Below the pieces are notes generated by a model. It had not been told where the DNA came from. It was given only the letters and a program-made list of their open reading frames with translations, and ran no database searches. Shown here piece after piece: positions 12,508-50,339 of a DNA stretch of 51,956 nucleotides (positions are counted from its first letter, which is position 1; every line of letters starts with the position of its first letter). Position numbers and translations under genes: made by a program. Origin of the DNA: Bacteroidales bacterium (GTDB lineage: Bacteria > Bacteroidota > Bacteroidia > Bacteroidales > UBA932); assembly GCA_017614715.1 (NCBI GenBank), contig JAGABI010000021.1, positions 1 through 51,956 of the forward strand, read 5' to 3'.

Positions 12508-15500
12508 TCTTGAGAATGTATTTTAAGTTTGATGGTATACCTGCGCAACGATTTGCGGTGAGGTATTTTTCTTCATCGTTAATGTAAGCAGTTACCTCCA
12601 TATCCTTGTGTGAAAGGGCTGTCAGCAGGGGGTAAACTCCGCAGCCGGCATCTGCAATCTCGAGTGAGCTTCCGCTGAGTGCATCAATCTGTTTGAAGAC
12701 CGCCTTCCTGAGATATTTACGACATTCTGACCGGGCATCATGCCCCTTGTAGAGGTATCTGGAGCGCACATACGGTGCAACATATTCAGCGGTTTCACGT
12801 TCTCGGCGGATGCGGTCGTATTCTGCGATATAACTGTGGCGCACAGAGCGGGTAAAGGCCGCCATGTTCCCGTCCGGAACCTGGAAACTCTTGCCGACTT
12901 CCAGATATAGCCCGGCGCTGTGGAGTATCTTGTTATGCTTTGGCAGCATATACCCGAATCCGTGGATATATAGCGGCAGTACCGGCACTGAGAGCTCCTT
13001 TGCCAGCAGGAAAGCCCCGCGGTGGAAGCGGAGTATGTGACAGTCGGGGCTGCGGGTGCCTTCAGGGAAAAGCAGTATTGAGTAGCCGCGCGCCACCAGT
13101 TCTTTGAGGCGGGCGCTGTTGTTCTCGAACGCCATGGAGGTGGGGAGGAAGTCGGCCTTGCGGATCACCGGCCCGTATGTCTTCCATGCCCAATCGTTTG
13201 TGAGAACCACAATCTTTGGCTGCAGGGAAAGAATCGCCAGGGTATCCAGGTGCGACTGATGGTTGCAGATGTAAATTGCCGGCGTGGAGAAATCCTCTCC
13301 AGAAGGATTCTTTACCGTGTAACGGCATCCCGGAATCGCCCTGATTGCCCAGTTGGATATGCGCCATATCATGCGGTGATAATTGAGCCGCTTGCGTTCA
13401 CTGTTCCTCCCAAACGCAAAATATACCGCAGCCCAGAGAGCGATTAGGCACAGTGAGAGGCCAAAGGTAGAGAATACGAAGGCGGTACTGAGCAGCATGG
13501 CTAAGGTGAGCGGGTATTTGCGCAAATCCCCGGACGGGTTGCGGGTGAGCAGCCGGAACACCATGGGCGGCAGGTAGTAAGCCATCAGCACCACCGTGAA
13601 CATGCCGATAATTGTCACTGACGCAAGTGACCGCATCGCGGGGTGGCGCGCCACAATCAGGGCGCCGATGCCGATGAACATAATCAGCGCCGACAGTACA
13701 ACCGCATTTTTGTATGACTTCAGAATCTTCTTCCCGGTGGCGTATTCGTACATCAAACCTTCAGTGATGAAGATGGTGTAATCGTCCCCCTGGCCAAAAA
13801 TGAAGGTGGCCAGGATTATATTGATAATATTGAAGCCGATGCCGCAGAAGTGCATTGTGCCGAGTATCCATATCCAGCCGACTGCGAGAGGCAGGAAGCT
13901 CATAATGCTAAGCTCCAGCGAGCCAAAACTCAGCCAAAGGAAGAGGAATACTATCAATCCGCAGATCAGGCCGATACGGTCAAAATCGCTGTTGAGAGAA
14001 CTTATCAGTGAGTTGCTTAAATCAGAATCGGTGAAGCAGAAACAATTCCCGGGGAGGGCTGTCCTGATTGATTCTTCCCTTTGGGTTACCTCCTCTGACG
14101 GTACATCCAGATACGCTACCATTTGCAGGCGGCCGTCGGATGGCAGGAACATCGCCTGGCCGACTGTTTCGTAAAGAGGGGCGAACCAATCGGCCTCCTG
14201 AATCTCCCACTTACGTGAGATGTCGTCCAGGAAGAGGCGCACCGCCCAGTCGGTAAATCCCGCCGCAGTGGCGGCCCGGGGCAGGGTGGATACCACATCG
14301 GCATGTTCGCTCCAGAACTGCCGCCACATCGCCAGCCGCTTTTCCTGAGTCTCTTTAGAAGGGACAAACGGGCTCAGTGAGCGTGCCTGGGGAATTGTCT
14401 CAGAGAGACGTTCCATTGCAGCGAGAGTGGCATCTGTGTCCGGTGCTTCCGCCACCAGATAAATGGTCTTCTGTTCGCTGTCATCGCCAGAAAGGGCGGA
14501 GAGGGTTTCGAAGCCGGCCTGCTGTGCGGCTGTCATATAGTTGATGTTGTGAAGGTCGGCGTCAAATCTGACCTTGCGCCCCGCTATGTAAAGCACCACT
14601 GTAATCGCCAGAAACAGAATAAAGAAGGCTCTGCGGACCCCTTTGGAAGGGTTGATGTTGCGGTCAAAGTCAAAGCGTATTGTGTTGCGCGGCTTGCCCG
14701 CTGCCGGAATGAAAACCGGCAGGAATATCAGCACAAAGAGTATCGTCCCCACCAGCATCATCGCGCCGATAAAGCCAAAGTCGTGCAGCGCGTCGGCCTT
14801 GAGCAGCAACAGCGACAGGAAGGCGCCTACTGTGGTGATGTTGCCCACCAGCAGCGGATTGACCTGCTCAGAAAGGGCCTTGCGCTTATCTGGCTGATAC
14901 TTGAGATGGTCTATGTAGTGTAGCGGATAGTTGACCGCTATGCCGATTATGGTGGAGCCGATGCCGAGCACAATTATGGAGATGGCCGGCTTGAACAGGG
15001 CAATCAGCCCAAGGGCAAAAACAGCCCCGGCCGCTATAGAGACAAGAATCCAGAATACGTCGGTGAACCGCTTGTAGCTGAACCACAGTATTATGCTGAT
15101 GAGTATTGCCGCCAGCAGCAGCGCCGTAATGCTGTCTTTCTTGATTCGCGATGCGTTCTCCACCGCAACCTCAGGGCCGCCGGTAGAGGTGATTTGGACT
15201 GATTCAGATTGTGCAGCCGTCCTGGCTTTTATGTCGTTGACAAAACTAACCAGTTCTGAGTTTTTGCGGCTCTCGCTGCTGCCGTAAGGGGAATCGAGAA
15301 ATATGACGCCGGTGGAGCCGTCGGCAGTGAATATGTTATCCTCTTCAATCAGGCTTCCCCGCGCAGGGTTAAGTGTCTGCAGCCTCTGCCATACGGGTGT
15401 GAACAGGCCAAGCGGATCCTTGCGAAGGAAGCGTGCCTGCGGCCCAGGGTTGATCATGGCCTCCTTGTTGGCCAGCATTCTCTGCTCAATATATCCGTCA

Positions 15501-15925
15501 ATCTTAAGCAGGGAATCCATCCGGGCATAATCCTGCTCCTGCAAGAAGTATGGGAAGTTGTCAGATATAAAGTCGCTTACGTCAAAAAAGGCATCGTTGC
15601 CCCCTGGGTCCTGAAGCTGGGGATAGAGGCCGTCGGGATTGTTCTCTTTCCAGAGCTCCCGGAAAGAGAGCATCGCCTCCAGTTTATCTTCTTTTGTGCC
15701 GCCCTCAAAGAGAATCGCAATCTTGTCGTTTGCGCCCAGGCGGTCGTAAACCTCAGTGTAACGGCTGGTCTCTTTGCTTGCCGGGAGGAAAGATGAGATA
15801 TCCTCGTCATATTTGAGCCGCAGGGCACTTATAACGCACAGGGCAAGTACCACTGCCAGTGCGATTGCCGCAGCTGCCTTGTGCGAAGAGAGATAGTCGT
15901 AGAGCCCCAGTATTGCCTTCCTCAT
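12497..15925 (-). CDS. MMPL/RND-type lipid exporter fused to a PlsC acyltransferase and a short SAM-fold tail
   Basis: A protein of about 1142 residues. An N-terminal membrane helix (about 12-32) leads into a periplasmic domain, then a block of helices with the RND/SSD pattern (about 265-415), a second periplasmic domain and a second helix block (about 640-830). A PlsC-like domain follows, with Asn-His-Gln-Ser-His-Leu-Asp near 886 and Phe-Pro-Glu-Gly-Thr-Arg-Ser near 951. The last 60 residues carry Asp-Ala-Gly-Cys-Gly-Val-Tyr, which looks like motif I of a class I methyltransferase cut short. I chose the ATG at 15925 because AGGAGG lies just upstream and the start overlaps the GT2 stop as ATGA; a TTG 15 bases upstream is less likely. 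Exporter-acyltransferase coupling suggests lipidation and transport of the aryl polyene. Confidence 0.88.
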   Translation of the reverse strand: MRKAILGLYDYLSSHKAAAAIALAVVLALCVISALRLKYDEDISSFLPASKETSRYTEVYDRLGANDKIAILFEGGTKEDKLEAMLSFRELWKENNPDGLYPQLQDPGGNDAFFDVSDFISDNFPYFLQEQDYARMDSLLKIDGYIEQRMLANKEAMINPGPQARFLRKDPLGLFTPVWQRLQTLNPARGSLIEEDNIFTADGSTGVIFLDSPYGSSESRKNSELVSFVNDIKARTAAQSESVQITSTGGPEVAVENASRIKKDSITALLLAAILISIILWFSYKRFTDVFWILVSIAAGAVFALGLIALFKPAISIIVLGIGSTIIGIAVNYPLHYIDHLKYQPDKRKALSEQVNPLLVGNITTVGAFLSLLLLKADALHDFGFIGAMMLVGTILFVLIFLPVFIPAAGKPRNTIRFDFDRNINPSKGVRRAFFILFLAITVVLYIAGRKVRFDADLHNINYMTAAQQAGFETLSALSGDDSEQKTIYLVAEAPDTDATLAAMERLSETIPQARSLSPFVPSKETQEKRLAMWRQFWSEHADVVSTLPRAATAAGFTDWAVRLFLDDISRKWEIQEADWFAPLYETVGQAMFLPSDGRLQMVAYLDVPSEEVTQREESIRTALPGNCFCFTDSDLSNSLISSLNSDFDRIGLICGLIVFLFLWLSFGSLELSIMSFLPLAVGWIWILGTMHFCGIGFNIINIILATFIFGQGDDYTIFITEGLMYEYATGKKILKSYKNAVVLSALIMFIGIGALIVARHPAMRSLASVTIIGMFTVVLMAYYLPPMVFRLLTRNPSGDLRKYPLTLAMLLSTAFVFSTFGLSLCLIALWAAVYFAFGRNSERKRLNYHRMIWRISNWAIRAIPGCRYTVKNPSGEDFSTPAIYICNHQSHLDTLAILSLQPKIVVLTNDWAWKTYGPVIRKADFLPTSMAFENNSARLKELVARGYSILLFPEGTRSPDCHILRFHRGAFLLAKELSVPVLPLYIHGFGYMLPKHNKILHSAGLYLEVGKSFQVPDGNMAAFTRSVRHSYIAEYDRIRRERETAEYVAPYVRSRYLYKGHDARSECRKYLRKAVFKQIDALSGSSLEIADAGCGVYPLLTALSHKDMEVTAYINDEEKYLTANRCAGIPSNLKYILKNED

Positions 15926-16674
15926 CGCGACCTCCTGCAAAAGAGCCAGTTGAAGAGCATCCGGGGATAGCCGTAAACTATGGCCAGGATGCAGAGCAAC
16001 GTATTTAGCGCGAATATGCGCATGAAATCGCGTACCGGGTGGAAATGTGTCACGCGGTCTTCCGGATAATCGACGCGGATGAGTACAGATGCTATTTTAA
16101 GCCCCTTCCAGGCAGAGAATACCAGAAGCAGGAGTTCCGCTTCATAGCGGTTGGTCATAAACCTTACGCCGCTGATTTCACCGATAGGGTATATGCGGAA
16201 GCCTGACTGGGTGTCGGGGATATTTCTGAGGGTCTGGATCTTGAACCAGAAGTTTGCGAACCGGTTGGCGAATGTGTTGCCCCGGGGCATCCCCTCTGCG
16301 GTGAGATTGCGGCTGCCCACCACCAGTGTGTGGGGTGCGCACGAGCCAAGCAGCACCGGAATATCTTCCGGAAAATGCTGTCCGTCGGCATCCAGGGTTA
16401 TTACATATTCGTAACCGCTCCGGCGAGCAAAGCGGAAGCCCTCCTTAAGGGCATACCCCTTGCCGCTGTTCTTTGCTATGGTTATCAGATGCAACTGCCC
16501 GGAATATTGTTGACAGAGAGTTTCCAAGGTGCTTGCTGATCCATCTGTAGAGCCGTCGTTAACCACCAGCACCGGCAGGTTCTGACCCAGCGCACGTGTT
16601 ACAACCTGGGCGATGGTACCTGCGTTGTTATACGTCGGGATAACTATGATTGTATTCTGCCGGGTGGATGACAT
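15922..16674 (-). CDS. Glycosyltransferase family 2 (dolichyl-phosphate-sugar synthase-like)
   Basis: A 250-residue GT-A enzyme. It begins with Ile-Pro-Thr-Tyr-Asn-Asn, followed by Val-Val-Asn-Asp-Gly-Ser-Thr-Asp and the metal-binding Thr-Leu-Asp-Ala-Asp-Gly-Gln-His (DxD). The Gly-Lys-Gly-Tyr-Ala-Leu-Lys-Glu-Gly stretch is typical of polyprenyl-phosphate sugar transferases. A C-terminal hydrophobic segment (about 205-240) could anchor it to the membrane. The ATG at 16674 starts 5 bases past the preceding stop and directly before the first strand of the fold. A second ATG at 16710 would overlap the dehydratase gene by 31 bases. Its likely job is to add a sugar to a lipid or to the pigment. Confidence 0.86.
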   Translation of the reverse strand: MSSTRQNTIIVIPTYNNAGTIAQVVTRALGQNLPVLVVNDGSTDGSASTLETLCQQYSGQLHLITIAKNSGKGYALKEGFRFARRSGYEYVITLDADGQHFPEDIPVLLGSCAPHTLVVGSRNLTAEGMPRGNTFANRFANFWFKIQTLRNIPDTQSGFRIYPIGEISGVRFMTNRYEAELLLLVFSAWKGLKIASVLIRVDYPEDRVTHFHPVRDFMRIFALNTLLCILAIVYGYPRMLFNWLFCRRSR

Positions 16675-40356: not shown

Positions 40357-40373
40357 ACACCACTGATGGTAAG

Positions 40374-40404
40374 TTGCACTCGTAAAGCAAAAGTGTTATC
40401 TTTG
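40374..40404 (+). promoter_or_regulatory. Bacteroidota -33/-7 promoter of the exonuclease gene
   Basis: TTG at 40374-40376, a 20-base spacer and TATCTTTG at 40397-40404 fit the TTG / TAnnTTTG consensus. The ATG of the gene is at 40412, only 7 bases after the -7 box, so the transcript would be leaderless or nearly so. Confidence 0.7.
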
Positions 40405-40411
40405 ATAACTG

Positions 40412-40906
40412 ATGACCGACTTTGCTGCCATAGATTTTGAGACTGCGAATGAGTGCCGTTCCAGCGTGTGCAGCGTTGGGGTTGTAGTGGTGCGTGGGGG
40501 AGAGATTGTGGAGAGGTTTTACAGCCTGATTCATCCGGAGCCTGAATATTACAAGTGGTTCTGTCAGCAGGTTCACGGTCTATGCCCGGAGGATACCGAG
40601 GATGCACCGGTTTTTCCTTATGTCTGGGAGAAGGTAGAGCCGCTGATTGATGGCCTTCCATTGGTTGCACATAACAGTCCGTTTGACGAAGGCTGCCTCA
40701 AAGAGGTGTTCCGTGTATATCAGATGGACTATCCTGACTACGTTTTCTATGACACGCTCACTGCGTCCCGCCGGCACTTTGGACGCGCGCTCCCTGACCA
40801 CCAGCTTCAAACGGTGGCTGCCGCCTGCGGCTATGATCTGACTCATCATCACCACGCCCTGGCCGATGCCGAGGCGTGTGCCCATATTGCGATTCGGATA
40901 CTATAA
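40412..40906 (+). CDS. DEDDh 3'-5' exonuclease (DNA polymerase III epsilon-like)
   Basis: A 164-residue protein with all DEDDh residues: Asp-Phe-Glu-Thr (Asp8, Glu10), Asp in His-Asn-Ser-Pro-Phe-Asp, and His...Asp in His-His-Ala-Leu-Ala-Asp-Ala-Glu. The fold covers the whole chain, with no polymerase-binding tail, unlike E. coli DnaQ (about 243). It could proofread or degrade RNA or DNA ends. The gene lies alone between the amidotransferase operon and the CHASE2 gene, with its own promoter. Confidence 0.85.
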   Translation: MTDFAAIDFETANECRSSVCSVGVVVVRGGEIVERFYSLIHPEPEYYKWFCQQVHGLCPEDTEDAPVFPYVWEKVEPLIDGLPLVAHNSPFDEGCLKEVFRVYQMDYPDYVFYDTLTASRRHFGRALPDHQLQTVAAACGYDLTHHHHALADAEACAHIAIRIL

Positions 40907-40992
40907 TAAAGAAATCGCCCCCGCCAGAATAAAATCAGCGAAAAAATTGCCATATTTGCAAAATTGAAGTTGAAACAGCATAAGTGGACGGA

Positions 40993-42156
40993 ATGGTTTC
41001 TAAAAGTGGTATGAACAAAGTTCTTGTCGCAGCATTAATCGCTGTTGCGGCATTGATTGTTTCGTACACATGCACGAACCTAAACTATGCTATCTCCGGA
41101 GAGAAAGCCACATTGAAGTACTGGCGAATTTTTAACGAATGGATATCTAACAGCGAGGAAAAGCTCCCGGATGATGTGGTTTTCATCAATGTCGACTACG
41201 ATAAGCAGCTGGTGGATATCACCGATGAATTCGGGATTCCGGTGGGCAACGCCGCGATAACCGACCGCCAAAAGATATCCCGGCTCCTGGAAATAATTGA
41301 GGAATCCGGTTCATACAAATATGTCATGATGGACATATTCTTTGAATCCGGATATGAAACAGAAAAGGATAGTGTGCTCTTCAACCGGATCGCTTCAATG
41401 GAGAGAATCGTGATACCCAAACACGTCAACGGTTCCCTGGGAAACCCGGCTTTAGATGCAAAATCCGCCTACGCTGATTACGTGACGACAATCAAGGAGA
41501 CCAGTTTTACTAAATACCTGCTGTTCCGTAAGGACGGGCCATCCATGCCGCTCAAATCTTATTCAGATATTACAGGACACACAGTTAAACGAGTCGGCCT
41601 TTGGTATGCCGATAATGGCAGTCTTGCCCGGAAGGTCATTTTCCCCAAGCTGTTTGTTAAAATTGTTTCTCCTTACCGCATGGATGGGCAAAAGGCATAT
41701 CTGAACATAGGGGAGGATATCCTGGATGTAGCTGAAGAAGTTGACTGGCCAGATTTCTTTAAGGGAAAGTACGTTTTAATTGGTTCTTTTACGGGCGACG
41801 ACAGTCATCTCTCTTATGCAGGTAATATCCCGGGATGCCTGATTAATTACAATGTGTACCTGTCGCTTATGAGAGGGCGGCACAAGATTCCGTTTGCCTT
41901 GATTCTGGTGTATTTCATCATCTTCTTTATCATGGCATACCTTATTCTGAATTCGAGTACTGTTGCATCGCAGTCCTGGGGGTGGGTATTGGCCAAAATT
42001 TTTACCATTTACTCATTGATTTTGACAATTGTTTGTATCTTTGTGTTTGCGATATGGGGCCAGGCTCATGATATCTTTATAACTTCAACGTTTTTCAGTA
42101 TCATTGACATGGTCAACCGGAAATTAAAAAAGAATAAAAAACAACAACATGCGTAA
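40993..42156 (+). CDS. CHASE2-domain membrane sensor without a fused output domain
   Basis: A 387-residue inner-membrane protein. It has an N-terminal membrane helix (about 8-27), an extracytoplasmic CHASE2 domain (about 35-290) and two or three C-terminal membrane helices (about 298-355), ending in a Lys-rich tail. CHASE2 landmarks are Val-Val-Phe-Ile-Asn-Val-Asp-Tyr-Asp near the start, Val-Met-Met-Asp-Ile-Phe-Phe-Glu, and Tyr-Val-Leu-Ile-Gly-Ser-Phe with Ile-Pro-Gly-Cys-Leu-Ile-Asn-Tyr-Asn later. CHASE2 usually precedes a kinase or cyclase, but here nothing cytoplasmic follows. The ATG at 40993 is chosen over an in-frame GTG 9 bases upstream. The end overlaps the next gene by 8 bases. Confidence 0.82.
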   Translation: MVSKSGMNKVLVAALIAVAALIVSYTCTNLNYAISGEKATLKYWRIFNEWISNSEEKLPDDVVFINVDYDKQLVDITDEFGIPVGNAAITDRQKISRLLEIIEESGSYKYVMMDIFFESGYETEKDSVLFNRIASMERIVIPKHVNGSLGNPALDAKSAYADYVTTIKETSFTKYLLFRKDGPSMPLKSYSDITGHTVKRVGLWYADNGSLARKVIFPKLFVKIVSPYRMDGQKAYLNIGEDILDVAEEVDWPDFFKGKYVLIGSFTGDDSHLSYAGNIPGCLINYNVYLSLMRGRHKIPFALILVYFIIFFIMAYLILNSSTVASQSWGWVLAKIFTIYSLILTIVCIFVFAIWGQAHDIFITSTFFSIIDMVNRKLKKNKKQQHA

Positions 42157-42757
42157 GATTTTTTTACTTTTATTGTGCTTAGTCTCGACCTCCATGATGG
42201 CTGAGGACTTCAAAATACTGTTCGTCAACACTGATAACATAAAGATTGGAAAGAATACGTGCGTCGCCGGTGATGTGTTCAGCGATGCCGGGAAGATTTA
42301 CTGGAAGAACTCCAAACAGGCCATGAAGGTTATCTCCCTTGATACAAAGACGCAGTATGTGATGGTCTCGGAAGACTTCAAGAACCGGAAACTGAAATCA
42401 GCAAAAGACTTTATGGTAAAATACCATAGGCTTTCTACACGTGGGATAGGGAGCCTGTCTTCTGTCTCGAGCGTTATTGGCAATAAGTTATACTGGCTCA
42501 ATCCAACCCTTATCAAGATAGACTATGTGCCGGAAGAAGGAGATTACTTCTTTTTGTTGACTCCCGATAATGAAATAATAAGGTTGGAGGTGGAGGACCA
42601 GCAACTTGTGATAGATGACAGGATTTGGGGAGAAGCTAATCCGTTCCCCATTGAAACAGACCTCTATTTCCACTACAAGGACGGTGAAGACAAGTTGGTC
42701 AAATCCGGAATACTGATAAGTCCATTGCCAACTGAAATCCGGTTGAAAAAAAGGTAA
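42149..42757 (+). CDS. Small exported protein of unknown function
   Basis: A 202-residue protein with a signal peptide (Arg-Lys-Ile-Phe-Leu-Leu-Leu-Leu-Cys-Leu-Val, cleavage after Ser-Met-Met-Ala). The Cys in the hydrophobic part is not in a clear lipobox. The mature chain is rich in strands and charged residues and ends in Arg-Leu-Lys-Lys-Arg. I recognise no domain. It overlaps the CHASE2 gene by 8 bases, so translation is probably coupled, and it precedes the TPR-CHAT gene by 46 bases with a hairpin between. Its position makes it a candidate partner or substrate of the CHAT domain, which is inference only. Confidence 0.7.
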   Translation: MRKIFLLLLCLVSTSMMAEDFKILFVNTDNIKIGKNTCVAGDVFSDAGKIYWKNSKQAMKVISLDTKTQYVMVSEDFKNRKLKSAKDFMVKYHRLSTRGIGSLSSVSSVIGNKLYWLNPTLIKIDYVPEEGDYFFLLTPDNEIIRLEVEDQQLVIDDRIWGEANPFPIETDLYFHYKDGEDKLVKSGILISPLPTEIRLKKR

Positions 42758-42777
42758 TCCGCGAGGTTACCTTTTTT
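42747..42777 (+). terminator. Hairpin terminator overlapping the stop codon of the small exported protein gene
   Basis: Arms 42747-42757 and 42767-42777 pair over 11 bases (A6GGTAA with TTACCT6) around a 9-base loop, with the T run inside the right arm. The left arm contains the last codons and the TAA of the upstream gene. A ribosome finishing that gene would cover the left arm, so termination could depend on translation. It separates the CHASE2 pair from the TPR-CHAT gene. Confidence 0.7.
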
Positions 42778-42803
42778 CATCATATGACGTATTTTTATAG
42801 TGT

Positions 42804-45800
42804 ATGTACAATACTGTAGAAAACAGGTTCAGGGGATTACTGATTGCCATTCTTCTGTTTCCCATAATTGTATTTGCGCAAGACAGGCCCGTCCTTTCCC
42901 AAGCAGATTCTTTGCAAGAAAGAGGGACAGAGTTATACGCGGAAGGTCAGTATGAGGATGCAATTACACTATTTGAGGAAGCCGCCAGAATCAGAAGAGA
43001 GCTGTTGGGCGATTGTTCCGCAGCACTATCAAACAGCCTGTTCAACATAGGGTTATGTTATTTTAACCTTGACGACTGCGCCAAGTCGCTGGATTACCAT
43101 CAGCAGGCATTGGCTATACGGGAAAAGGTTCACGGTAAGGAACATCCGGATTATGCCAGCAGCCTGATCAGCATCGGGAACTGTTATAATAACCTTGGTG
43201 ATTATGCCAAGGCGCTTGAGTATTATCAGCAGGCATCGGCTATACGGGAGAAGGTTCACGGTAAGGAACATCCGGATTATGCCAGCAGCCTGAACAACAT
43301 CGGGCTCTGCTATTCTAACCTCGGCGACGATGCCAAAGCGCTGGATTACCATCAGCAGGCATTGGCAATACGGGAGAAGGTCTATGGAAAGGAGCATCCG
43401 GATTGTGCGGCGAGCCTGGCCAGTATCGGGTTATGTTATAATAACATTGGAGATTATGCCAAGGCGCTGGATTTTTATAAGCAGGCATCGGCTATCCGGG
43501 AGAAGGCCTACGGGAAGGAGGGCCCGGATTACGCGGCGAGCTTAGCCAACATCGGGGTTTGTTACAATAACCTTGGCGACTATGCCAAGGCGCTGGAGTG
43601 TTATCAGCAGGCGTTGGCTATCCGGGAGAAGGTCAACGGCAAGGAGCACCCGGATTATGCAAGGTGCCTGAACAACATAGGGATTTGTTATTATAACCTT
43701 GGCGACTATGCCAAGGCGCTGGAGTATTATCAGCAGACGTTGGCAATACGTGAGAAGGTCAACGGGAAGGATCATCCTGACTACGCCGGCAGTCTGGTCA
43801 GCATCGGGAACTGTTATTATAATCTTGGCAATAATGCCAAGGCACTGGAGTATTATCAGCAGGCATTGGCTATACGAGAGAAAGTTTACGGAGATGAGTA
43901 CCCGGAGTACGCCAGGAGCCTGAACAACATAGGGAACTGCTACTCTGGCCTCGGCAATTATGCCAAGGCACTGGAATATTATCAGCGGGCGTTGACTATC
44001 CGGGAGAAGGTCAACGGCAAGGACCACCCGGATTACGCCATGAGCCTGGACAACATCGGAAACTGCTACTCCGGACTTGGCGACTATGCCATGGCGCTGG
44101 AGTATTATCGGCAGGCATTGGCAATACGGGAGAAGGTCTATGGAAAGAATCACCCGGATTACGCCATGAGCCTGAACAACATCGGCAACTGCTATTCTGA
44201 CCTTGGTAACAACGCCAAGGCTCTTGATTGCCATCAGCAGGCGTTGGCAATACGGGAGAAGACCATCGGTAAGGAGCATCCGGATTATGCGGCAAGCCTG
44301 ACCAGCATCGGGCTGTGTTATAATAACCTTGGCGACAATGCCAAGGCCCAGGAGTATTATCAGCAGGCATTGGCTATCCGGGAGAAGGTCTATGGGAAGA
44401 ATCACCCGGATTACGCCATGAGCCTGAACAATATCGGGAACAGCTACTCTGACCTTGGCGACTATGCAAAGGCCCTGGATTACCATCAGCAGGCGTTGGC
44501 AATACGGGAGAAGGCCATCGGCAAGGAGCACCCGGATTACGCCATGAGCCTGAACAATATCGGGAACTGTTACTCTGACCTTGGCGACTATGCAAAAGCG
44601 CTGGATTATCATCAGCAGGCGTTGGCAATACGGGAGAAGGTCTGCGGTAAGGAACATCCTGATTACGCCATGAGCCTGAACAATGTCGGGATCTGCTATT
44701 CTGACCTGGGTAACAATACCAAGGCGCTGGATTACCATCAGCAGGCGCTGGTAATACGTGAGGAGGTCTACGGCAAGGAGCACCCGGATTACGCGGCGAG
44801 CCTGGCCAACATCGGGGTGTGTTATTATAACCTTGGCGATTACACAAAGGCGCTTAAGTGCTATCAGCAGGCATTGGCAATACTTGAGAAGGTCTACGGC
44901 AAGGGGCATCCGGATAACACCAAGAGTCTGAACAACATCGGGCTCTGTTATTATAAACTCGGCGACTATGCCAAGGCCACAGAATATCTCGCGCGTTATT
45001 CGAATGCAGTCATTTCGGTAGTCACGGCCACCTTCTCCTCTCTGACCGAGTCTCAACGTGAGTCTTTCTGGAAACGGTACAGCTATTTCTTCACTAACGA
45101 GCTATTTGACTACTGCACGTCTATATCATCCCCCGAAATGAACCGGACGGCATTCGACGGCGCTCTCTTTGGCAAGGGGCTTTTGCTGAATGCTGAGCTG
45201 GAGTTCCGTAATCTTATCCGGGAGAGTGGTGATTCTGAGGCTTTGAAGATGTATAATGACATCCAACAGAGCCGCATTCGACTGGACGATATCTATCAGG
45301 ATCCGGTCGGGAAAAAGGCGCAGATTGACTCCCTGAATAACGACATAGAAACCCGTCAACAGGAGCTGATGAAGCGTAGCAAGGTGTTTGGGGACTATAC
45401 GCGGAACCTGGCGCTTAAATGGACGGATGTCCAGTCGGCTCTTGGGAGGAGAGACATCGCCATCGAATTTGAGACATATACCCATAAGGACACTACTTTC
45501 TACATAGCTCTCACTCTGAAACGTGATTATGCCGAGCCTCATCTTATCGAACTGTTCAACAGTAAAGATCTCGGAGCTGTCAGACCTTCCCGCTACTACA
45601 CGACAACCAGCCTTACCGATCTGGTCTGGGGGCCTCTGGAGAAAGAACTTAACAGTGTACAGAATGTATATTTCTCCCCTGCAGGTGAGCTGAACAACAT
45701 CGGGATAGAGTACTTGCTGGACAAAGACGGGGAACTCATATTATCAGATAAGAGAAACTATTACCGTCTCACATCCACCCGTGAACTCGTAAAGGAGCAA

Positions 45801-46577
45801 GGTTCTAAGATGATAACCGATGCAACAATCTATGGCGGAATCCAATATGACAGATCTTCTGCCGGCGCACTTACCGGCACACACGGCAGATGGAAGTATC
45901 TTCCCGGGACGAAGACGGAAGCCGAATCCATCTCTAATACACTGACGTCAATGAGAGTCCAGAACGAACTCGTGGAGGGGGAACTAGGGACGGAAGAGTC
46001 TTTTAAAAATCTCAGCGGGAAAAAAAAGAATGTCATCCACATAGCGACACACGGATTCTACTGGACGGAGACCGAAGCCGCCAGGAATAAAATGGAAGCG
46101 GCTTCTTTTATGCTTGAAGGAGAGAGCCGGGCTCCAAAAGAGGACAAAGCGTTAACCAGGTCGGGACTTCTCTTCGCCGGAGCCCAGAATTCATTAGAAG
46201 GGAAGGAGATACCGTCAGATGTGGAAGATGGCATCTTGACGGCAAAAGACATTTCCCGGATGGACCTTAGGGAAACAGACCTTGTCGTCATATCGGCCTG
46301 TCAGTCAGGTCTTGGAGAGGTGACAGGCGATGGCGTGTTCGGCCTCCAGCGTGGCTTTAAGAAGGCCGGCGCGCAGTCAATAGTGATGAGCCTGTGGGAT
46401 GTGGATGACGAAGCCACAAGAATTATGATGACCTGTTTCTATGAAAACCTGGCAAAAGGCAAGACCAAATACGACGCCTTCCGCGAGGCACAGAAGTACC
46501 TCCGAAAGTATGACAAAGGGAGATTTGACGCGCCCGAATACTACGCAGCCTTCGTGCTGCTTGATGCGATAAGGTAG
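42804..46577 (+). CDS. Exported TPR-CHAT protein (caspase-like protease domain)
   Basis: A 1257-residue protein. Residues 8-26 (Arg-Phe-Arg-Gly-Leu-Leu then hydrophobic, ending Phe-Ala-Gln) form a signal peptide. From 53 to 724 run 16 tandem 42-residue TPRs of the kinesin-light-chain type with the core Gln-Gln-Ala-Leu-Ala-Ile-Arg-Glu-Lys-Val. A helical linker (about 725-930) leads into the C-terminal CHAT domain. The peptidase dyad is His1083 (Ile-Ala-Thr-His-Gly-Phe) and Cys1166 (Ile-Ser-Ala-Cys-Gln-Ser-Gly), with Ser-Leu-Trp-Asp-Val-Asp-Asp afterwards. It should therefore be an active, TPR-regulated cysteine protease of the caspase/separase clan. It differs from cytoplasmic TPR-CHAT proteins such as Csx29 by being exported. 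No clear promoter was seen directly upstream. Confidence 0.9.
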   Translation: MYNTVENRFRGLLIAILLFPIIVFAQDRPVLSQADSLQERGTELYAEGQYEDAITLFEEAARIRRELLGDCSAALSNSLFNIGLCYFNLDDCAKSLDYHQQALAIREKVHGKEHPDYASSLISIGNCYNNLGDYAKALEYYQQASAIREKVHGKEHPDYASSLNNIGLCYSNLGDDAKALDYHQQALAIREKVYGKEHPDCAASLASIGLCYNNIGDYAKALDFYKQASAIREKAYGKEGPDYAASLANIGVCYNNLGDYAKALECYQQALAIREKVNGKEHPDYARCLNNIGICYYNLGDYAKALEYYQQTLAIREKVNGKDHPDYAGSLVSIGNCYYNLGNNAKALEYYQQALAIREKVYGDEYPEYARSLNNIGNCYSGLGNYAKALEYYQRALTIREKVNGKDHPDYAMSLDNIGNCYSGLGDYAMALEYYRQALAIREKVYGKNHPDYAMSLNNIGNCYSDLGNNAKALDCHQQALAIREKTIGKEHPDYAASLTSIGLCYNNLGDNAKAQEYYQQALAIREKVYGKNHPDYAMSLNNIGNSYSDLGDYAKALDYHQQALAIREKAIGKEHPDYAMSLNNIGNCYSDLGDYAKALDYHQQALAIREKVCGKEHPDYAMSLNNVGICYSDLGNNTKALDYHQQALVIREEVYGKEHPDYAASLANIGVCYYNLGDYTKALKCYQQALAILEKVYGKGHPDNTKSLNNIGLCYYKLGDYAKATEYLARYSNAVISVVTATFSSLTESQRESFWKRYSYFFTNELFDYCTSISSPEMNRTAFDGALFGKGLLLNAELEFRNLIRESGDSEALKMYNDIQQSRIRLDDIYQDPVGKKAQIDSLNNDIETRQQELMKRSKVFGDYTRNLALKWTDVQSALGRRDIAIEFETYTHKDTTFYIALTLKRDYAEPHLIELFNSKDLGAVRPSRYYTTTSLTDLVWGPLEKELNSVQNVYFSPAGELNNIGIEYLLDKDGELILSDKRNYYRLTSTRELVKEQGSKMITDATIYGGIQYDRSSAGALTGTHGRWKYLPGTKTEAESISNTLTSMRVQNELVEGELGTEESFKNLSGKKKNVIHIATHGFYWTETEAARNKMEAASFMLEGESRAPKEDKALTRSGLLFAGAQNSLEGKEIPSDVEDGILTAKDISRMDLRETDLVVISACQSGLGEVTGDGVFGLQRGFKKAGAQSIVMSLWDVDDEATRIMMTCFYENLAKGKTKYDAFREAQKYLRKYDKGRFDAPEYYAAFVLLDAIR
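42960..44975 (+). repeat. Tandem 126-bp repeat array coding TPR units
   Basis: Sixteen in-frame copies of a 126-bp unit (42 residues). The first (42960-43085) is divergent; the 15 from 43086 to 44975 are closely alike at the DNA level, with blocks such as ATCAGCAGGC and CGGGAGAAGG recurring in each. All copies keep exactly 126 bases, with no indel. Several neighbouring units, for example numbers 12 and 13, are nearly identical, which points to recent copying or gene conversion. Copy number could vary between strains and be miscounted in short-read assemblies. Confidence 0.95.
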
Positions 46578-48686: not shown

Positions 48687-50339
48687 ATGATTCTCCTTGT
48701 CCCGGACAAATTCAAGGGGACGTTCACTGCGCCCCAGATAGCAGCCAAATTTGAAGAAGCCATCCGCCGCTCCGGCAACAATACGGAGGAAATTGTGTCA
48801 ATACCGCTTGCCGACGGAGGCGAGGGCTCGCTTGACGTATTCCTGCAGAATTATCCCGGAGCAAGCGAGGTTCTGGTGGATACCAAAGACCCTCTGATGC
48901 GCGACGTGGTTGCGCCGATGGCAGTGGCGGGCGATACTGTGTTTATTGAGCTTGCCCGCTGCAGCGGCCTGATGATGATTGACCGTGCCGAACGCAATCC
49001 CATGAAAACCACCACATACGGTTTGGGCATGCTGCTGCTGGCTGCCCTGGAATACTCTCCGCGCAGGATTATTGTAGGGGTGGGGGGCAGCGCCACCAAC
49101 GACGGCGGTCGAGGCATGATAGAGGCCATCGGCCTGGAGAATATCCATCTGTTTGACAATATCGAAGTAATGGTGGCTTGCGACGCCCGCAATCCTCTGC
49201 TTGGCCCCAACGGGGCGACATATACATACGCGCCGCAAAAAGGAGCCGATGCGCAGATGCTGCCGGTTCTTGAGCACAGGATGGAGGAGTGGGTGGCTAC
49301 CGCCCGTGAATGGCTTGTTAAGCTGGGTCACACAGCCCAGGCTGCCGATTTTGACACTGTGCCCGGCGGAGGCACTGCAGGCGGGACCGGAGCGGCATTG
49401 TATGCATTCCTCAAGGCAAAACCTGTACACGGCTTTGAATTCTTCTCTCAGATGGTGGCTCTTGAAGAGAAGATCCGCTCATCGAGACTTGTAATTACCG
49501 GCGAGGGGCGTCTGGATGCCTCAAGTCTAAATGGCAAGCTGGTTGGAAGTCTGGCAGAAATGTGTGAAAAAGCATGCCGGCGGCTTTATGTGGTCTGCGG
49601 CCAGAATACACTGGGTAGCGACCCTTCTATCTGCGACATCGCGTTGCTCGCCACAGATTTCGAAGAAAAGATTGGACGTTGGTGCAGGTGCGACTGTCGG
49701 AGTGATTATCTCCCGGAAGATGGCATGTTATTCAATTTTGACTCGCCTTCCGGCTCGCATTATGGCGTTATTGCCGGCTGTGACGAGGCGGGGCGAGGTC
49801 CGCTTGCAGGTCCGGTATATGCAGCTGCGGTGATTCTCCCGGATGGATTTTATCATCCTTTACTGAAAGATTCAAAAAAGATGACTGCCGCACAGCGCGA
49901 AAAGATGTGCGAAATCATTATAAATGAAGCTGTCGCCTGGGGCGTGGCCAGCGTGTCCGCAGAGGAGATTGACCAGATAAATATCCTTCAGGCATCAATC
50001 AAAGCAATGCAGGAGGCGCTCCGGGGGATCAAGGCAGATTTCAACATCTCGCCCGACTTGATTCTTGTGGACGGTAACCGGTTTAAACCTTTTTACGATG
50101 CCGACGGAAAGCAGATTCCGCACAAATGCATCGTAAAGGGGGACGACAAGGTGCCGGAGATAAGTGCAGCATCTATCCTTGCCAAAACATTCAGGGACAA
50201 GTTTATGCAGCGTATCGACGAAGAGTATCCCCAGTATGGATGGCGCCACAATATGGGTTATCCTACAGAGGAACACCGTGAAGCCATTCACCGCTACGGT
50301 CTTTCACCATATCATCGCAAAAGTTTCGGCGTAAAATAA
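48687..50339 (+). CDS. Glycerate kinase joined in frame to ribonuclease HII
   Basis: One uninterrupted frame of 550 codons. Residues 1 to about 330 are a glycerate 2/3-kinase of the GlxK/GarK type: Pro-Asp-Lys-Phe-Lys-Gly-Thr, Gly-Gly-Glu-Gly, Gly-Gly-Ser-Ala-Thr-Asn-Asp-Gly-Gly and Thr-Gly-Glu-Gly-Arg-Leu-Asp. Residues 347-550 are a complete ribonuclease HII (rnhB, 204 residues) with Gly-Cys-Asp-Glu-Ala-Gly-Arg-Gly and Asp-Ser-Lys-Lys-Met. The kinase lacks the usual last 40-50 residues, and the joining stretch (Cys-Arg-Cys-Asp-Cys-Arg) does not look like protein. Met347 (49725), after GGAAGA, is a natural start for RNase HII. So either the kinase lost its end and stop, or a base error made the fusion. 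Confidence 0.85.
   Translation: MILLVPDKFKGTFTAPQIAAKFEEAIRRSGNNTEEIVSIPLADGGEGSLDVFLQNYPGASEVLVDTKDPLMRDVVAPMAVAGDTVFIELARCSGLMMIDRAERNPMKTTTYGLGMLLLAALEYSPRRIIVGVGGSATNDGGRGMIEAIGLENIHLFDNIEVMVACDARNPLLGPNGATYTYAPQKGADAQMLPVLEHRMEEWVATAREWLVKLGHTAQAADFDTVPGGGTAGGTGAALYAFLKAKPVHGFEFFSQMVALEEKIRSSRLVITGEGRLDASSLNGKLVGSLAEMCEKACRRLYVVCGQNTLGSDPSICDIALLATDFEEKIGRWCRCDCRSDYLPEDGMLFNFDSPSGSHYGVIAGCDEAGRGPLAGPVYAAAVILPDGFYHPLLKDSKKMTAAQREKMCEIIINEAVAWGVASVSAEEIDQINILQASIKAMQEALRGIKADFNISPDLILVDGNRFKPFYDADGKQIPHKCIVKGDDKVPEISAASILAKTFRDKFMQRIDEEYPQYGWRHNMGYPTEEHREAIHRYGLSPYHRKSFGVK

Follow-up and report, generated by a model that had tools for sequence, protein, structure and literature searches.

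A CHASE2 gene, an exported partner gene and an exported putative TPR-CHAT peptidase gene in a Bacteroidales bacterium: a candidate envelope receptor with a peptidase output

The 51,956-nucleotide contig JAGABI010000021.1 (assembly GCA_017614715.1), here called the window over its whole length, comes from a rumen-type bacterium of the Bacteroidales and carries three consecutive same-strand genes that are the subject of this analysis (Table 1). The first encodes a membrane protein with a CHASE2 domain, the second an exported protein of 202 residues, and the third an exported protein that joins tetratricopeptide repeats (TPRs) to a CHAT domain. An earlier note, made from the sequence alone, had described this layout together with an 8-base overlap of the first two open reading frames (ORFs) and a CHAT dyad of His1083 and Cys1166, and all of it is confirmed by the ORFs, Pfam, the dyad residues and hydropathy. 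The start given there for the CHASE2 gene, 40993, is an in-frame ATG three codons into the ORF.

The CHASE2 protein matches PF05226 at 34 bits, which is modest but above the curated cut-off of 26.3, and a Pfam scan matched no kinase or cyclase domain on it. Hydropathy marks hydrophobic segments at residues 13-31, 304-322 and 339-357, a one-plus-two arrangement of membrane segments that becomes one plus three in several homologues (e.g., at loci L027 and L038), and from the last clear segment to the C-terminal end there are 33 residues. The 202-residue protein has a hydrophobic N-terminus and no match in a Pfam scan. The third protein has a strong match to PF12770 (CHAT, 176 bits) along with TPR matches, is the only CHAT match in its genome, and has an N-terminus that resembles a signal peptide by hydropathy. 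Its domain and its His/Cys dyad make it a putative CHAT peptidase, and both dyad motifs are present in all eight CHASE2-linked CHAT proteins found, the window's included. The TPRs are encoded by 15.4 copies of a 126-bp tandem repeat, and strains may therefore differ in the length of the array; the CHAT protein of a relative, G091, has 1283 residues. Compared with G091, the paired nonsynonymous and synonymous rates (dN/dS) are 0.057/0.290 for CHASE2, 0.119/0.507 for the 202-residue protein and 0.127/0.766 for CHAT, and dN well below dS indicates purifying selection on all three genes. Sequence searches found no solved relative of CHASE2, the CHAT region (phmmer, E 0.01) or the partner family described below.

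Table 1. Features of the CHASE2, partner and TPR-CHAT locus (positions in the window)
Feature	Position	Strand	Evidence
CHASE2 membrane protein, 390 residues, without detected cytoplasmic output domain	40984..42156	+	PF05226 match, hydrophobic segments
Exported partner protein, 202 residues, short member of a family of ~260-290 residues	42149..42757	+	CHASE2 overlap, family models
Intrinsic-terminator-like hairpin ending the CHASE2/partner unit	42745..42778	+	Fold z, conservation after partner genes
Exported TPR-CHAT protein, 1257 residues, putative cysteine peptidase, dyad His1083/Cys1166	42804..46577	+	PF12770, TPR matches, dyad
126-bp tandem repeat encoding the TPR array	43034..44977	+	15.4 copies, 78% matches

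The grouping of these genes in relatives is more than chance. A family sample of 199 genomes searched with the window's CHASE2 protein gave eight matches in six genomes, and a CHAT gene stands beside four of them (the window, L011, L012 and L013). The order in G091 (JAFXNQ010000063.1, a metagenome-assembled genome from sheep reticulum; locus L011) is identical to that of the window, and in G103 it is permuted: at L012 two CHAT genes, one of them cut by the start of the stretch, lie upstream of CHASE2, which is followed by a partner of 200 residues with the same 8-base overlap. At the second G103 locus, L013, a TPR-CHAT gene is divergent from CHASE2 and is joined by a gene for an exported-looking protein of 319 residues. 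CHASE2 with a protein of this 319-residue type, and no CHAT gene in the stretch seen, is found in G194 and G052. A caspase (C14) gene stands beside one further match (L010), and another is a CHASE2 fragment at a contig end (G144). These eight matches are the outcome of the check that the earlier note had proposed, on whether the three genes stay together in related genomes. L012 also has a phage-integrase family gene (14778-15968), about 8 kb from its CHAT-CHAT-CHASE2-partner locus.

Comparison of the flanks across 26 genomes of the genus indicates that the CHASE2, 202-residue and CHAT genes were gained or lost together as a block. The flanks are a purF-like gene and an esterase gene; the purF-like and carbonic anhydrase genes were named by eye, and the dnaQ-like exonuclease and the esterase from domain matches. 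In the module-free arrangement of G161, G051 and G778, the purF-like and esterase matches end 17 to 21 bp apart. G169 has carbonic anhydrase and dnaQ between them, with the dnaQ and esterase matches 27 bp apart; G783 is split between two contigs and has carbonic anhydrase and the end of dnaQ ahead of the esterase; and G033 has a 3.3-kb stretch at the site without any match to the module genes. The window reads purF-dnaQ-module-esterase and G091 reads purF-carbonic anhydrase-module-esterase, so that the interval before the module holds dnaQ in one (40357-40983) and carbonic anhydrase in the other (L011 5497-6133). Both genes are present in G169, a pattern consistent with reciprocal losses. The module is present in three of the 19 same-genus genomes listed by the CHASE2 search, the window's own included.

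The link between CHASE2 and exported peptidases was also surveyed in a class sample of 295 genomes, in which the neighborhoods of CHASE2 matches were fetched and genes were taken from a simple ORF caller. CHASE2 (PF05226) is found in 30 genomes, CHAT in 100 and C14 in 111; the window's CHASE2, a divergent one, escapes the PF05226 search. CHAT occurs in 27 of the 30 CHASE2 genomes, and C14 in the remaining three (G235, G488 and G491); the genomes are not independent, as a single genus supplies nine of the 30. The earlier note had held that CHASE2 normally shares a chain with its output domain. In this sample the stand-alone form is the rule, since 29 of 33 matches lie in open frames of 364-455 residues.

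A CHAT or C14 gene lies within 6 kb of eight of the 34 class-sample CHASE2 genes, the window excluded (L010, L022, L024, L033, L038, L045, L046 and L057), against 0.67 expected under random placement (P 1.8e-7, about twelvefold; the chance rates are lower bounds, since the underlying gene counts, put in by hand, were capped or incomplete, and the loci are not independent). Weak CHASE2 hits without a CHASE2 gene by the local model (L028, L029 and L059) were dropped from the counts. CHAT and CHASE2 are separated by an opposite-strand partner gene at L038 and L046, and by one further gene at L046, and the proximity of CHAT there may be plain synteny; six of the 34 are left without them (P 4e-5). 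L024 has the order CHASE2-partner-CHAT, and C14 is adjacent to CHASE2 at L022, L045 and L057, with two genes between at L033. Pfam confirms CHAT at L012 (two genes), L013, L024, L038 and L046, and C14 at L022 (three tested of four called), L045 (two), L057 (two), L033 (one of two tested) and L010. Where their start is complete, the CHAT and C14 proteins clustered with CHASE2 have an N-terminus like a signal peptide. What is upheld of the earlier note's idea is a membrane and exported module that moves as one unit, along with peptidase genes beside the sensor in several lineages.

Partner genes beside CHASE2 were counted in two ways. Judged by hand, 28 of 40 CHASE2 genes are directly followed by a partner, a short gene whose product begins with a hydrophobic stretch. 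With models, a partner-type gene is adjacent or fused at 33 of 41 CHASE2 ORFs (32 of 40 without L109, the locus found via its partner); most of these partners were in the model training, and a leave-one-genus-out run, the control, recovered nine of 12 genus groups. Those not recovered were L022, L041 and L057, and L022 is matched at E 8e-36 by a model of the 202-residue type built without it. Excluded from training by name were L035, L046, L053, L054 and L058 (not partner-like) and L010 (a fusion); L027, L034, L044 and L055 were lost by distance, and at L023 and L038 no gene on the strand of CHASE2 lies downstream of it. Divergent upstream genes outside the training are matched by the N-domain model at L035 (E 8e-17), L038 (5e-12) and L046 (5e-20). 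At L023 (533-6682) eight genes for exported-looking proteins of ~240-280 residues, alike by eye, stand in tandem. A second partner-type gene of 291 residues follows the first at L047 (10601-11476) and L049 (5862-6737).

The 202-residue protein belongs with these partners: its gene adjoins CHASE2, its N-terminus is hydrophobic and it has the common N-domain. Of 295 genomes from the order, 11, the window's own included, have a match to a family model built from the window, L011, L012 and L022. Nine complete new members (262-290 residues by the ORF caller) look exported and have a C-terminal stretch that the 202-residue protein is missing. A model of the new members and L022, without the window type, matches the 202-residue protein at E 3.6e-7, the new members having first been collected with a model that contained it. 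In profile comparison the 13-member family reaches 92% in hhalign against the other CHASE2 partners (P 7e-7, over ~60 residues), and controls with FecR, C14 and CHASE2 give 0.1-0.3%; the three window-type sequences alone gave a weaker 22.6%. Pairwise global alignments with single partners are weak (z 1.9 for L022; z 3.7 for L010, where one of 300 shuffles reached the real score), and the clear answer came from profiles only. CHASE2 and its partner are, with high probability, a receptor pair and the conserved core of the module.

A FecR identity for the 202-residue protein, which the appearance of the partners and a CHASE2-FecR pair in the literature had suggested, was rejected by Pfam and profile comparison. 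Pfam scans of 21 partner proteins gave no FecR match, even at E up to 10, and hhalign gives 0.2-1.9% against 25 FecR domains of the class; proteobacterial LysM-FecR proteins lie outside this comparison.

The strongest single piece of evidence for joint action of partner and peptidase is a paralogous locus in the same genome. The CHASE2 protein of L010 (G000:C19) is 34% identical to that of the window and scores 25.0 bits against PF05226, just below the cut-off. A gene 27 bp after it encodes a protein of 701 residues with a partner-like N-domain, C14, PEGA and LamG. Against the 202-type model its N-domain reaches 17.3 bits; the best of 2000 shuffles reached 9.9.

This fusion bears directly on the role of the 202-residue protein, which the earlier note had proposed as the first candidate substrate or regulator of the CHAT peptidase. 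That proposal rested on gene adjacency and on analogy with type III-E CRISPR systems, in which the TPR-CHAT protease Csx29 cleaves the neighboring Csx30 (PMC10028731). A substrate role is improbable in our estimate: most partner-family loci seen beside CHASE2 have no CHAT gene nearby, a domain related to the protein shares a chain with a caspase, and the setting of Csx29, which acts with Cas7-11 and target RNA, differs. As a short member of the CHASE2-partner family, the protein is more likely a receptor subunit, and a subunit or adaptor would fit its family better than a substrate.

The reading that we favor, at about an even chance, is that the locus encodes a two-part envelope receptor, made of CHASE2 and the exported partner, and that this receptor acts through an exported CD-clan cysteine peptidase, TPR-CHAT in this case. 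Sequence features show a receptor without an output domain in Pfam, an exported-looking partner, an exported-looking peptidase with its dyad, and their linkage. In outline, the partner would sit on the CHASE2 domain in the periplasm, and an envelope cue would alter the complex. The TPR superhelix would dock on the CHASE2/partner complex, and the CHAT dyad would then cleave some envelope protein.

Behind the partner gene, a hairpin with a T run, absent from the earlier note, recurs at L011 and L012 as well as in the window, where its fold z is -4.9 (-4.2 in L011). The hairpin pattern has one match only in the 52-kb window, and a generic terminator scan of the window did not list it. At L012 it follows the partner gene too, though the CHAT genes stand upstream there. 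We read it as the end of the CHASE2/partner transcript, with CHAT as a separate unit or reached by read-through; a single transcript for the three genes is not supported. The overall interpretation in the earlier note is supported in part, for the module, and not for the one-chain rule or the substrate role.

Several observations weigh against a peptidase output, apart from the limits already attached to the chance rates. The conserved terminator separates the pair from CHAT in both the window and L011. No CHAT or C14 gene lies within 6 kb at 26 of the 34 class-sample CHASE2 loci (by local models, some cut by contig ends), and in the family sample two of the eight matches (L014 and L015) show the pair but no CHAT gene over the stretch seen. 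Among ten complete CHASE2-linked C14-type proteins, four have both the His and Cys motifs by our own expressions, and one of the ten has no Pfam C14 match. None of five plasmid CHAT neighborhoods opened, out of 114 records, has an annotated CHASE2 gene, although the gene tables are incomplete. An AlphaFold2 model of the 202-residue protein from a two-sequence input has a mean predicted local distance difference test score of 42.6 and gives no usable fold.

The neighbors of the new family members add to these points. A CHASE2 gene is found at L109 and a C14 gene directly before the member at L104. Y_Y_Y-SpoIIE sensor phosphatase genes stand at L105 (8130-12274) and L106 (7921-12044), and a response regulator (Pfam) at L110, with a gene similar in sequence at L107 and L112. 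At L110 (7730-9034) and L112 (5859-9143) the member follows the response-regulator-like gene, and at L112 a histidine kinase gene comes after. Nothing is evident at L111 and L113, and L108 is at a contig start. The phosphatases, kinase and response regulators indicate that the partner is not peptidase specific, and the variety of neighbors makes the family look like a general envelope signaling subunit.

These observations fit a receptor pair that stands by itself, with its output encoded elsewhere or passed through its membrane part, and a TPR-CHAT gene that is an independent neighbor on the same block. The terminator and the 26 loci favor it, as does the greater frequency of CHAT in the class (100 genomes, against 30 with CHASE2). 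Set against this are the roughly twelvefold excess of CHAT and C14 near CHASE2, which recurs in different gene orders and with two peptidase families, and the fusion of a partner-like domain to C14. We consider an independent neighbor unlikely, though it is the alternative to be taken most seriously.

Caspases and CHAT proteins are found in known defense systems, and the block could be a mobile defense or conflict module in which CHAT harms the cell on an envelope trigger. Its patchy presence in the genus with a clean block indel, the integrase gene near L012 and a PADLOC hit, a weak one, between the CHASE2 protein and an effector with two membrane segments (E 7.5e-4) point this way. However, whatever else PADLOC matched in the three proteins involves TPR parts or is weaker still, CHAT and the partner have the look of exported proteins, and the pair is retained in many genera without a nearby peptidase, all of which makes a defense role very improbable.

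If the favored two-part receptor with a peptidase output is correct, the output would account for stand-alone CHASE2 genes, which have no evident output of their own. It would also supply a regulator for exported caspase and CHAT proteins and make an uncharacterized exported family a receptor subunit. A broader generalization is possible but somewhat less secure: output-less CHASE2 proteins with this unnamed exported partner family may be a class of envelope receptors that act through an exchangeable exported CHAT or caspase protein, so that signaling need not enter the cytoplasm.

Two elements of this arrangement are already in print, each separately: the pairing of CHASE2 with an exported protein and the fusion of a caspase to CHASE2. 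In the BiofilmReg operon of Burkholderia and relatives (response regulator, exported LysM-FecR protein and CHASE2 histidine kinase), the gene for the exported accessory protein lies 10 bp from the receptor gene; however, the CHASE2 chain there bears the histidine kinase, whereas the window CHASE2 has no output domain and its partner no FecR or LysM match (PMC5192318). In magnetotactic bacteria the gene for a signal-peptide protein, mtxA, precedes a CHASE2-adenylate cyclase gene, and the output described is a cyclase rather than a protease (PMC4439547). One of the 21 partner proteins scanned has a weak MtxA_C match (E 0.034). CHASE2 cyclases of Sinorhizobium likewise sense a cue through an envelope partner, in this case the outer-membrane beta-barrel NsrA, with cyclic AMP as output (PMC13001267).

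On the peptidase side there is the metacaspase-CHASE2 fusion of Trichodesmium, which also ties a CD-clan cysteine peptidase to a CHASE2 receptor (PMC3501461, PMC2853523). It is described as one chain, a single sequence, with the peptidase predicted to be cytoplasmic; the window differs in having separate genes, an exported-looking peptidase and a partner protein, and the arrangement involves CHAT as well as C14. Csx29 (Craspase) shares the TPR and CHAT architecture with a His/Cys dyad but is RNA activated and works with Cas7-11 (PMC10028731). The signal-peptide-like N-terminus of the window protein argues against membership in that group. Text searches of openly licensed papers found no paper with CHASE2 and "CHAT domain" and none with a CHASE2 receptor pair and an exported CD-clan peptidase, such absence being weak evidence.

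Two plasmid records touch on these families. A CHASE2 query from L026 matched one, from Bernardetia, with a hypothetical gene downstream. On an Aureibacter plasmid (L065 1197-5399) a sigma-70 family gene and a hypothetical gene come before a CHAT gene, which may be another regulatory link of CHAT. Elsewhere in the window, a single 550-residue open frame at 48687-50339 encodes a glycerate kinase and then a ribonuclease HII, and a frame of the same kind and equal length is present in G091 (L011 13908-15560).

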